Positions 31,086-60,876 of a stretch of DNA of 64,000 nucleotides are shown here, piece by piece. The DNA comes from Rhodobium orientis. GTDB taxonomy: Bacteria > Pseudomonadota > Alphaproteobacteria > Rhizobiales > Rhodobiaceae. The stretch is taken from the NCBI RefSeq assembly GCF_003258835.1, contig NZ_NPEV01000003.1, positions 62,001 to 126,000 of the forward strand, given 5' to 3'. The translations under genes and the position numbers were made by a program. A model generated the notes under the pieces. It saw only the letters and a program-made list of their open reading frames with translations. It was not told the origin of the DNA and ran no database searches. How positions within the stretch are numbered: the first letter of the stretch is position 1; each line of letters starts with the position of its first letter.

Positions 31086-32409
31086 ACGGCAGCAGGCGGG
31101 CAAGCTCCGGCCCGTGATCGAGGCCGGTCAGCGCCAGCCGCAGCGGCATGAAGAGCTGTTTGCCTTTTCGCCCGGTCTTCTCCTTCAGCGCCGACGTCCA
31201 GGCCTTCCAGGTGGTCTCGTCCCAGGGCTCGTCCGGCAACAGGTCGAGGGCGTCTGCCATGAACGGGCGGTCCTCTTCGGCAACGACCGGATCGATGTCG
31301 CCGTCCACCACCTGCCACCAGTCGGCAACGTCGGCGAAGACCTCCAGATTGCCGCGTACCGCCTCCCAGAAATCCTCCCCGCCGGCAACGCCGAGGATGG
31401 CCAGCCGGTCGGTGACGTCCTCGTAGTCGAGGCCATGCAGCATCCGCGCGTTAAGGCTTTTCAGTTCCTCCGGATCAAACCGGGCCGGCGCCCGAGAGAT
31501 GCCTTTGAGGTCGAACATGCCGGCGAGTTCGTTGAGGGATGCCACCGGGGCGACCGCATGGGAGGTGCCGATGAGGACGGCGTGGGCGGCGATCGCCAGC
31601 GGCTCGTAGCCGGCGTCGCGCAGCGCGCCGACGGAGAGCGAGCCGAGGCGTTTCGACAGCCCCTCCCCGCTCGCCGTCGTCAGGAGATTGTGGTGACCGA
31701 AGCGCGGCGGGTCGGCGCCCAGCGCCTCGAACAGGCAGAGCTGCACGGCCGTGTTGGTGATGTGGTCGTCACCGCGCAGGACTTCCGTCACACCGCAGTC
31801 GATGTCGTCGACGATGGAGGGCAGCGTGTAGAGGTAGCTGCCGTCCTCGCGGATCAGCACCGGGTCGGAGAGCGAGCCGATGTCGACGCTCTGGGGGCCG
31901 CGGCAAAGATCGTCCCAGGCAATGTCCCGGCGCGCGATCTCCGCCGGATCGCCGTCGTAATTCGGCAGCAGGAAGCGCCAGTGCGGCTTGCGGCCGTCCG
32001 CTTCCAGGGCTGTCCGTTCCGCGTCCGTCAGCTTCAGGGCGGCGCGGTCATAGACCGGCGGCTTGCCTTGCGCCCGGCGCAGGCGCCGGCGGCGCTCCAG
32101 CTCCTCCGGCGTCTCGTAACAGGGATAGACGAGCCCCGCCGCCTTCAGCTTTTCGGCCGCGGCGTCGTAGGTTGCGAGCCGTTCCGACTGGCGGATGGTG
32201 CGGTGCGGGGCGATGCCGAGCCAGCGCAGGTCCGTCTCGATGGCCTCGGCGAATTCGGGCCGGGAGCGCTCCTTGTCGGTGTCGTCGAAGCGCAGGAGGA
32301 AAGTGCCGTCGGTCCTGACCGCCTCCAGCCAGTTGATGAGGGCGGTGCGGGCATTGCCGATATGGATATGGCCGGTCGGCGACGGCGCGAAGCGGACGGT
32401 GGCGCTCAT
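31039..32409 (-). CDS. gltX: Glutamyl-tRNA synthetase
   Basis: 456 residues. [14 protein letters not shown] carries the HIGH motif, [13 protein letters not shown] is conserved, and the KMSKS loop reads EGLSKRLG. The GluRS anticodon-binding half follows. Many alphaproteobacteria carry two GltX copies; this may be either. Because GatB is present, one of these probably also charges tRNA(Gln). The ATG overlaps the nadE stop (ATGA, 32406-32409), so the two are coupled; the 3' end overlaps DUF2865. Confidence 0.93.
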
Positions 32410-34115
32410 GAGGTGGCTTTCGGGCCTTTGGCCGTGGCGCCGTTGCGGTCGCGGAACCGGTTGGTGATCGGATAGCGGCGGTCGCGGCCGAAATGCTTGC
32501 GCGTGACCTTCACGCCCGGCGCGGCCTGGCGGCGCTTGTACTCGGCGATGTAGAGCAGGTGCTCGACCCGGTGGACGAGGTCGCGGTCATGGCCCCTGGC
32601 GACGATGTCGTTCACCGGCATCTCGTTTTCGACCAGGCATTGCAGGATGTCGTCGAGCACCTCATAGGGCGGCAGGGAATCCTGGTCGGTCTGGTTCTCG
32701 CGCAGCTCCGCCGTCGGCACCTTGGTGATGATGTTCTTGGGGATCACCTCTCCCGCCGGCCCGAGCACACCCTTCGGAAGGAACTCATTGCGCCAGGCGG
32801 CGAGCTTGAACACCTCGGTCTTGTAGAGGTCCTTGACCGGATTGAAGCCGCCGTTCATGTCGCCGTAGAGCGTGGCGTAGCCGACGGAGACCTCCGACTT
32901 GTTGCCGGTGGTGACGACCATGGAGCCGAACTTGTTGGAGACGGCCATCAGGAGCGTGCCTCTGGTGCGCGACTGGATGTTCTCCTCCGTCACGTCCGGA
33001 TCACGGCCGGAAAAGAGAGGGCCAAGCGCCTCTGAGAACCCTTCCACCGGCTCGGCAATCGGCACGATGTCGTAGCGCACGCCGAGCGCTTCGGCGCAGG
33101 CCGCCGCATCGCCGAGGCTTTCCGACGAGGTGTAGCGGTATGGCATCATGATGCAGTGGACCCGGTCCGGCCCGAGGGCATCGACGGCCATTGCCGCGCA
33201 GACGGCGGAATCGATGCCGCCGGACAGACCAAGCACAACGCCGGGAAAGCCGTTCTTTTCCACATAGTCGCGAAGGCCGAGGACGCAGGCGTTCCAGTCC
33301 GAGGCGGCGCGGTCGAGGAGCGGCTCCATCGGCCCCTCGACGCAGCGCCAAGGCGCGTCGCTATCCTTCTTCCAGACCGTCAGCACGACGGACTCTTCGA
33401 AGTCGGGCATCTGGAAGGCGAGCGAGCGGTCGGCGTGGAGGCCGAAGGACGCGCCCTCGAAGATCAGTTCGTCCTGGCCGCAGATCTGGTTGAGATAGAC
33501 CAGCGGCAGGCCGGTCTCGACGACCCGGGCGACCATCACCTGCAGGCGCAGATCCGTCTTTTCGTGCCAGTAGGGCGAGCCGTTAATGGACAGCAGCATC
33601 TCCGCGCCGGTCTCCATCAGGCATTCGCAGACCTCGTCCGACCAGCCGTCCTCGCAGATCGGCACGCCGAGCGACAGGCCGCGGAACTGGATCGGCCCCG
33701 GCAGACCGCCGGCCGCGAAGACGCGCTTTTCGTCGAAGACGCCATAGTTCGGCAGGTCGACCTTGTAGCGGGTGGTGACCACCCTGCCCTCGTCGAGGAG
33801 GCAGACGGCATTGTAGACGCCGCCCTCGTCGCGCCACGGGGTGCCGATCAGCATCGCCGGTCCGCCGTCGGCGGTGTCCTTTGCAAGGTCGTGCACCGCC
33901 GCCTCGCAGGCCTCGATGAAGGCCGGCTTCAGCACCAGGTCCTCGGGCGGATAGCCGGCGATGAAGAGCTCGCTGTAGAGCACCATGTCGGCGTCCATGG
34001 CCGCCGCCTCGGCGCGCGCGGAACGCGCCTTCGCCGCATTGCCGGCGATGTCGCCGACGGTCGGGTTGAGCTGGGCCAGCGCCAGGCGGAAGGTGTCGGT
34101 GATCGGATGGGTCAT
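32406..34115 (-). CDS. nadE: Glutamine-dependent NAD+ synthetase
   Basis: 569 residues, two domains. The N-terminal nitrilase-like glutaminase has the triad Glu49 (YSELF), Lys118 (KVDLPNYG) and Cys154 (PICEDGW); the C-terminal ammonia-dependent synthetase has the P-loop [15 protein letters not shown] and [17 protein letters not shown]. Makes NAD from deamido-NAD, ATP and glutamine. First gene of nadE-gltX. The upstream 640-base gap is unusual and is listed as separate features. Confidence 0.95.
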
Positions 34116-34266
34116 GGTCCCCGTTTAGCGCGGGGCGCGGAGCGGGACAATGGGATTCGGGGATGGGCGCGTGCCTTGCCCCCTCAGCCTCGCCCCGGCA
34201 AGGTGATTGGCGGGCGAGAGTACGCACGGGCCATCGCACCTCTTCCGACGTCTTGCCGAGTGGTTC

Positions 34267-34282
34267 AGATACGTTCGTATCT
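34267..34282. promoter_or_regulatory. Perfect palindrome AGATACG-TT-CGTATCT
   Basis: Seven-base perfect arms around TT, 152 bases upstream of the nadE start. Size and symmetry suit a dimeric regulator; no family can be named. The surrounding 34116-34755 has no gene. Confidence 0.45.
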
Positions 34283-34316
34283 CGCGGTGACGTTCGTCAT
34301 GCCACCGAAACCCCCT

Positions 34317-34374
34317 CTGGATTGCCGCGCTCGCTCCGCTCGCTCGCAATTGCGAGCGCAGCGAAGCAATCCAG
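34317..34374. repeat. Dispersed palindromic element, copy 3 (compact form)
   Basis: CTGGATTGCCGCGCTCGC...GCAATTGCGAGCGCAGCG...GCAATCCAG. The two halves abut with no spacer and form a 58-base near-perfect palindrome. Confidence 0.85.
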
Positions 34375-34520
34375 GCCGCCTTGGCGACATCGCACGGCAT
34401 ACCGAGGGGACAGGCCAATGGCCCCGGGTCTCGCTACCCTCGCCCGGGGTGACGACGGCGTTTGCGGCCGGCGAAAAAGGCTATCAAGTCAGCCGCATCG
34501 GGGACCGTTGGTGAGGAAGT

Positions 34521-34770
34521 GAGTCAACGGGCTCACAATCCGATTCAGGCAAGCACGGCACCATGAGACGGTGATTCAATCGCTTCACAAACCGATTCAA
34601 CGAGCTGCGCGTCACTTGAAGTCCTGATTCAAGTAGGCGCCGCAAACCGGCCGTTCTTGCCGTCCCGCATCCTTCAGAAACTGATTCAAGTGCGGGCGAA
34701 AAGGCGAGTCGTTTGAATCCCTTGCCGCCCGCTCCTGAGGCGCCGATTCACATGGTTAACAAATCGATTC
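34521..34770. repeat. Cluster of ten GANTC (CcrM) sites
   Basis: Sites at 34521, 34542, 34573, 34594, 34626, 34683, 34706, 34715, 34745 and 34766; most read GATTCA(A), spaced 9 to 57 bases. At this GC content fewer than one is expected per 250 bases. ACTTGAA-7-TTCAAGT (34614-34634) is a perfect inverted repeat inside it. The last site lies in the 3' end of the dioxygenase gene. GANTC is the methylation site of CcrM in this bacterial class. Confidence 0.7.
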
Positions 34771-35595
34771 AACTTCGCTGGAAACGCCGTCCAGTTCCGC
34801 CACCGTGCCGAAGGCGAAGCAGTCCATGGCGAGCGCGCCGTATTGCGCGGAGGAATGGATGCGGCGGCCGGACGCGGCCGGCCCCGCAGCACCGAGGGCG
34901 ACGAAGATCGGCAACAGGTGCTCGTCGGTCGGGTGGTTCTGCAGCGCGAAGGGCGCCCTTGCCCGGTAGTCGAGGAGATCGTCGACGGCGCCCTCAGACA
35001 GCCTGTCGGCGAACCAGTCGGCAAAGCCCTTGACCCAGTCATGGGCCGGCCCGCCCTTGTCATCGCGGCCGTGCCGGAACGCTTCGCGCAGATTGTGGGT
35101 GAGCGCGCCGGTGCCGACGATGAGGACGTCCTCGTCGGCGAGCGGGGCGAGCGCCCGACCGAGCGCGAGGTGGTGGGCCGGGCTCATCTGTGGCTGCACG
35201 GAGAGCTGGACGACCGGCACGTCGGCGTCGGGAAACAGGAGCATCAGGGGCACCCAGGTGCCGTGGTCGTAACCGCGGTTGCGGAGCTCATCGGCGGTCA
35301 GGCCAGAAGCGGCAAGGCGCCCGGCGATGTCCGATGCAAGCGCGCGGTCGCCCGGGGCCGGATAGACCATCTCATAGAGGCGCGGGTCGAAGCCGCCGAA
35401 GTCGTAGATCATGCCCGGTGCATCGTCGACGACGACCGCCGGCCGGCGGGTCTCGAAATGGGCCGAGACGGAGACGATGGCGCGCGGCCGCGGCAGGCTC
35501 GCGCCGAGGGCCTTCAGGTGGTCGCGGGCGGGGGTGTCGCGCAGCACCAGGTCGGGGGCGCCGTGGGAGATGAAAAGCGGCAACTGGCGGGCCAT
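34756..35595 (-). CDS. ygiD: DODA-type extradiol dioxygenase (YgiD/LigB family)
   Basis: 279 residues. Opens with LPLFISHGAPDLVLRD, with IVSVSAHFETRRPAV, RGYDHGTWVPLMLLFP, and GTGALTHNLRE, matching the LigB-fold DODA family in which His residues bind a divalent metal. YgiD opens 4,5-DOPA-type catechols in vitro; the natural substrate is unknown. The ATG follows a CGTGAGGATT leader. Last ten or so codons run into the GANTC cluster. Confidence 0.9.
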   Translation of the reverse strand: MARQLPLFISHGAPDLVLRDTPARDHLKALGASLPRPRAIVSVSAHFETRRPAVVVDDAPGMIYDFGGFDPRLYEMVYPAPGDRALASDIAGRLAASGLTADELRNRGYDHGTWVPLMLLFPDADVPVVQLSVQPQMSPAHHLALGRALAPLADEDVLIVGTGALTHNLREAFRHGRDDKGGPAHDWVKGFADWFADRLSEGAVDDLLDYRARAPFALQNHPTDEHLLPIFVALGAAGPAASGRRIHSSAQYGALAMDCFAFGTVAELDGVSSEVESIC

Positions 35596-50421: not shown

Positions 50422-50429
50422 TTTTTTCG

Positions 50430-50745
50430 CTCACGGTCAATTCGCTTCGCTCATGACCTCCGCGGGGGCCTCGCATCGGCTCGGGCGCGCAGTCGCGCTT
50501 GCGAAGCCAACGGCTTCGATTTCTCTCACGCCAAACTCGCTTCGCTCGCTGGCTCCGTGAGGGCCTCGCATGAGCTCTGGCGGCCGGTCGGCCTTGCGAA
50601 GCCCTTGGCTTCGTTGGGGCATCTCACGGCAGTTCGCTTCGCTCACGCCTGCGATGGCGCGGCGCATAAGCGCCGGCGGCCGGTCCGCCTTGCGAAGCCC
50701 TTGGCTTCGATTTCTCTCACGCCGACTTCACTTCGTTCAACGCTG
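50430..50745. repeat. Tandem ~95-base repeat array beside tRNA-Val (3.3 copies)
   Basis: Units start with CTCACG at 50430, 50525, 50623 and a partial fourth at 50716 (lengths 95, 98, 93). Each complete unit has TTCGCTTCGCTC near its front and an internal hairpin CGAAGCC-3-GGCTTCG near its end. The last unit runs into the 3' end of the DoxX gene. No protein is encoded. Confidence 0.75.
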
Positions 50746-60834: not shown

Positions 60835-60876
60835 GAATTCGACCCGATGAATTCGACCCGATGAATTCGATCCGAT
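60835..60876. repeat. Three tandem 14-base repeats upstream of the L,D-transpeptidase
   Basis: GAATTCGACCCGAT occurs twice exactly and once with one change (GAATTCGATCCGAT). Ends 39 bases before the transpeptidase ATG. The 360-base gap (60556-60915) has no gene; the transpeptidase promoter must overlap or precede these repeats. Confidence 0.8.

Follow-up and report, generated by a model that had tools for sequence, protein, structure and literature searches.

Eight head-to-tail copies of a 19-bp GANTC-bearing motif beside nadE, a possible docking array for a chromosome-organising protein in Hyphomicrobiales

The matS site of the E. coli Ter macrodomain, at which MatP acts, is a single 13-bp palindrome, and we know of no counterpart sequence in alphaproteobacteria. 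MatP itself has been reported only in enteric bacteria (PMC7188993). In Caulobacter crescentus, ChIP of ZapT, a MerR-family protein of the ihfA-zapT operon, gave ten sites, mostly within open reading frames, nine of which fall around the terminus at 1.3-2.2 Mb; no consensus motif emerged for ZapT, whose specificity in vitro is low (PMC7188993). Homologs of ZapT have been reported in Brucella (PMC7858052). Dense groups of GANTC sites are known from promoters, such as that of gcrA in Agrobacterium, which has six GANTC sites in the 250 bp upstream, and the hemimethylated state of GANTC sites is briefest near the terminus (PMC11514494).

The region described here belongs to a window of 64,000 nucleotides, the whole stretch of DNA that was analysed. 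It comprises eight head-to-tail putative binding sites for a sequence-specific DNA-binding protein, and we see about an even chance that it is a terminus-half array working much as matS does. Like matS, the sites are short, lie on the terminus side in both genic and intergenic sequence, and serve no single pathway, but they are 19 bp long, asymmetric, and arranged head to tail, and they do not follow the 13-bp palindromic consensus. ZapT likewise has sites near the terminus, in its case mostly in open reading frames, but it has no consensus motif and a low specificity in vitro. The ten GANTC sites of the array recall the dense clusters of CcrM/GcrA promoters; there, however, GANTC defines the promoter sites, while here a longer periodic motif, found mostly away from promoters, has GANTC as its core. 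Finally, plasmid iterons likewise repeat head to tail every two helical turns, but the sites of the array type are dispersed on the chromosome and no replication initiator gene was seen nearby.

A sequence-only reading of this DNA had noted ten GANTC sites in 250 bases where under one is expected, and all ten are present where that reading put them (Table 1). The sequence is GATTCA at seven of the ten, and successive sites are spaced by 21, 31, 21, 32, 57, 23, 9, 30, and 21 bp. GANTC is depleted in the window as a whole, with 81 sites observed versus 328 expected from shuffles; the expectation per 250 bp is about 0.3 at the real density and 1.3 from shuffles. Our background consisted of a 460-kb sample of the same genome and whole-genome pattern searches, and against it the cluster is the densest spot found. 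No 250-bp window elsewhere in the 460 kb reached six sites, and in the whole-genome search for close GANTC triplets the spot was tied by one other only, a coding repeat in ycjX. The cluster had been placed just upstream of nadE and over the 3' end of a dioxygenase gene. Its last site (34766-34770) is inside the open reading frame of the LigB-type dioxygenase, and the array is about 405 bp from the nadE start at 34115 and not directly at it.

The GANTC cluster is a by-product of an array built from a longer unit. The 19-bp motif STTGAATCRNTTTSTSAAS, laid out as TTGAATC, 3 bases, and a TTGTGAA-like half, recurs eight times head to tail on the minus strand, and the sites belong to these copies. 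The idea that GANTC alone was the repeated unit therefore gave way to this motif, and simple GANTC clustering was rejected because the repeated unit is longer than GANTC. A PWM that takes its sites from exact hits in related genomes, neighbours included, yields STTGAATCRNTTTSTSAAS; in the 64-kb window it scores above 8 at the eight units only, all of them on the minus strand within 34510-34773. Steps between adjacent units are 21, 62, 57, 32, 21, 31, and 21 bp, and since neighbours are mostly two or three helical turns apart, many units would face the same side of the DNA. A GANTC site is present in every good unit; the two at 34706 and 34715 fall outside the units, and both are kept in a congener (G001). 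A classical tandem repeat was rejected, as Tandem Repeats Finder reports none at the array, and so was a structured RNA, with no Rfam covariance-model match at E values up to 1 across 33900-35000. Between the array and nadE, a palindromic element, CTGGATTGCCGCGCT ... AGCGAAGCAATCCAG, occupies window positions 34312-34374 and is probably an intergenic repeat.

Table 1. Units of the array, GANTC sites, and neighbouring features, in window positions
Feature	Position	Strand	Remarks
Unit 1, GTTGAATCGATTTGTTAAC	34755..34773	-	PWM 24.9; inside/overlapping dioxygenase 3' end
Unit 2, TGTGAATCGGCGCCTCAGG, second half weak	34734..34752	-	PWM 8.8; 21 bp from unit 1
Unit 3, CTTGAATCAGTTTCTGAAG	34672..34690	-	PWM 30.0; exact core match
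Unit 4, CTTGAATCAGGACTTCAAG	34615..34633	-	PWM 16.3
Unit 5, GTTGAATCGGTTTGTGAAG	34583..34601	-	PWM 26.4; exact core match
Unit 6, ATTGAATCACCGTCTCATG	34562..34580	-	PWM 17.2; 21 bp from unit 5
Unit 7, CCTGAATCGGATTGTGAGC	34531..34549	-	PWM 18.9
Unit 8, GTTGACTCACTTCCTCACC	34510..34528	-	PWM 17.2; 21 bp from unit 7
GANTC sites (starts)	34521, 34542, 34573, 34594, 34626, 34683, 34706, 34715, 34745, 34766
Imperfect inverted repeat, 19-nt arms, 79% complementary	34686..34738		flanks GANTC 34706 and 34715
LigB-family (DODA-type) dioxygenase, upstream neighbour	34756..35595	-	PF02900, E 1.5e-35
nadE, glutamine-dependent NAD synthetase, downstream neighbour	32406..34115	-	PF02540 and PF00795

The cluster is far denser than chance would give, and it is also conserved in relatives. 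All ten GANTC sites are kept in G001 with nearly unchanged spacing. Between the window's own genome (G000) and G001, the units are 95.4% identical, versus 75% for the spacers and 88% for the adjoining coding sequence (units versus spacers, Fisher p 1.7e-6), and the most variable motif position is the motif's free position. A smaller array of the same 19-bp unit sits between the same two genes, dioxygenase and nadE, in the more distant G002, whose dioxygenase is 59% identical. The unit also occurs in other clusters, in the folE/hisI intergenic region and in a FemAB-like gene, and further clusters in G002 lie upstream of fabI and in the gap between genes for an enoyl-CoA hydratase and a hydrolase. 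Separately, seven GANTC sites in about 140 bp (L142:6145-6287; G000:C182:41144-41282) were seen upstream of a sensor-kinase-like open reading frame; this cluster is at least partly kept in G001 (C5:276963) and has no 21-bp array.

The motif extends across the order. Its core, TTGAATCRNTTTSTSA, has 163 matches (a hand sum of table rows) in 88 of 397 Hyphomicrobiales genomes, versus 1 for a reversed-pattern control. Because an exact core match occurs in only 22% of the genomes, either the system is unevenly distributed or its motif is subject to drift. Many of the core matches sit in arrays with an exact 21-bp period and up to eight units, as at L300; around exact hits, distances to same-strand neighbours peak at 21 bp (30), 42-43 bp (18), and 63-64 bp (8), and opposite-strand neighbours number only 4. 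In-register mismatches at the G, A, T, and C of GANTC were seen 20 times versus 49 expected, which makes the CcrM site the most constrained part of the unit. The middle base of GANTC is A in about 90%, and the free middle base that would be expected if methylation alone were selected is not clearly seen. We found no description of the motif in open-licence papers, nor do the papers searched appear to describe a comparable conserved array of multiple DNA units, whatever its function. The unit together with a second TTGAATC was also found in six viral contigs, in five of them inside one conserved phage gene and probably by chance. On a GC-rich viral contig that may be a prophage or gene transfer agent, the interval separating genes for the terminase large subunit and the phage portal has two to three units (L404:3118-3219).

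The commonest settings of the arrays are coding sequence and the promoter-free gaps between convergent genes, with gene calls around the loci being heuristic except where Pfam was run. Loci between convergent genes include those at thrS, at a grxD-like gene, and at the enoyl-CoA hydratase/hydrolase site, which holds arrays in two families, f27 (L299) and f1 (L224). Those in coding sequence lie inside ycjX and FemAB-like genes: in five loci of family f44 the units occupy one shared segment of ycjX, the C193 GANTC cluster of G000 falls in that same segment of the ycjX coding sequence, and the G002 FemAB-like gene has motif-rich segments in two reading frames. Arrays also occur upstream of the unrelated housekeeping genes nadE, hisI, fabI, and gph, and array-flanking genes have no common pathway. 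In G255, a gene for a CcrM-type DNA methylase (N6_N4_Mtase plus RAMA domain) has a motif unit 230 bp upstream (L302:1499-1517).

Regulators of the AraC/XylS type bind 17-bp direct repeats 21 bp apart, and 21-bp direct repeats fit two-HTH regulators in general. The array could be an operator for a conventional transcription factor, of this or a similar type, that controls nearby genes, and the arrays upstream of housekeeping genes and the unit near the CcrM-type methylase gene would suit such a role. A regulon is argued against, however, by flanking genes that share no pathway and by the many arrays that are intragenic or lie between convergent genes, and eight units would be unusual for one operator. 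We consider an operator unlikely, if still worth keeping in view.

The sequence-only reading had proposed a methylation-dependent switch of the CcrM/GcrA type acting at nadE or the dioxygenase. Methylation could matter, since no part of the repeated unit is better conserved than its GANTC core, and clustering of GANTC at a promoter has its precedent at gcrA of Agrobacterium (PMC11514494). Nevertheless, conservation extends over a unit far longer than GANTC, and most arrays elsewhere lie away from promoters. A promoter cluster of this type would sit at the promoter and be kept with its gene, but this array is 405 bp from nadE, and the nadE loci checked in other genera have no array upstream of the gene. 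Regulation of nadE by the array, as proposed in that reading, is accordingly unlikely, and the switch as a whole strikes us as quite improbable.

Rickettsia palindromic elements insert in frame into genes, and the motif-rich segments inside ycjX and the FemAB-like gene, in two frames in G002, might likewise suggest that a dispersed repeat or a small mobile element left them behind. Against this, BLAST of the array against its own genome found no second copy of it (next E 0.34), and a longer dispersed repeat was rejected on that ground. The shared part is the 19-bp motif only, and the units are under selection with their 21-bp phase kept, so we see little prospect for a mobile origin.

Position on the chromosome was assessed in 11 single-contig chromosomes, in which parS served as the origin marker; for G315 and G218, GC skew bears out both origin and terminus, and chromosome lengths were rounded for G329, G272, and G196. 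Thirty of 31 exact loci lie in the terminus-side half, at 0.55-0.81 of the parS-to-terminus distance, and the remaining one at 0.49. This is the terminus concentration known from matS, except that the exact loci avoid the last fifth beside the terminus. The probability of such a bias by chance is about 1e-4, taking about 13 loci as independent by our own judgement, and the test covers three families only (f44, f6, and f41), with 7 of the 11 chromosomes belonging to one genus (g70) and sharing loci. Hits with one mismatch, among which real sites are mixed with chance ones, show the same bias, with 78% in the terminus half. As the window's own genome is a 244-contig draft, we infer the terminus distance of its array from G002, where the polarity of GGGNAGGG, which is polar by replichore in G315 and G218, points to a terminus at 0.5-0.82 Mb of C1. 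The nadE array of G002 is at 0.26 Mb of the same contig, about 0.25-0.55 Mb away. In the window itself (1-64000), this KOPS-like sequence is strongly polar, with 1 occurrence on the plus strand and 14 on the minus strand. A replication-control locus, consisting of iteron-like initiator titration sites or a fork-pausing site, would agree with the 21-bp head-to-tail repeats and with placement relative to the terminus, but it has a slim chance at best, because no replication gene was seen nearby and, in G218 and G174, the units at exact sites point the same way on either replichore, which leaves no fork polarity.

A motif that is periodic, conserved, order-wide, indifferent to gene function, and biased toward the terminus half behaves as a docking site for a chromosome-organising protein would, and this role is likelier for the array than that of a gene switch. 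A dedicated protein would bind the units of such an array cooperatively and, once bound, would organise or anchor the chromosomal region that replicates late, in the manner of MatP at matS. CcrM should methylate the GANTC sites in the units, and its methylation may, speculatively, modulate binding at the array, which could differ between fully methylated and hemimethylated DNA. Because terminus-proximal GANTC sites are hemimethylated for the shortest time, methylation is a possible, though again speculative, timer. ZapT is a candidate for the binder by function only; an ihfA/MerR (zapT-like) pair was not found in the DNA scanned, which is a small part of each genome. More tentatively, and with considerable doubt, these elements could be combined into a new terminus-organising system of the Hyphomicrobiales, in which periodic 19-bp sites with an obligatory GANTC core are read by ZapT or another protein and timed by CcrM. 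If this were true, the last-replicated region would be gathered only once it had been replicated. An order-wide, periodic, terminus-biased motif would offer a direct handle for finding the binder and for testing both terminus organisation and the link to CcrM.

Two other repeats were noted in the window: a tandem repeat of about 95 bp in 3.3 copies at 50425-50735, and three near-perfect 14-bp tandem copies of GAATTCGACCCGAT at 60835-60876.
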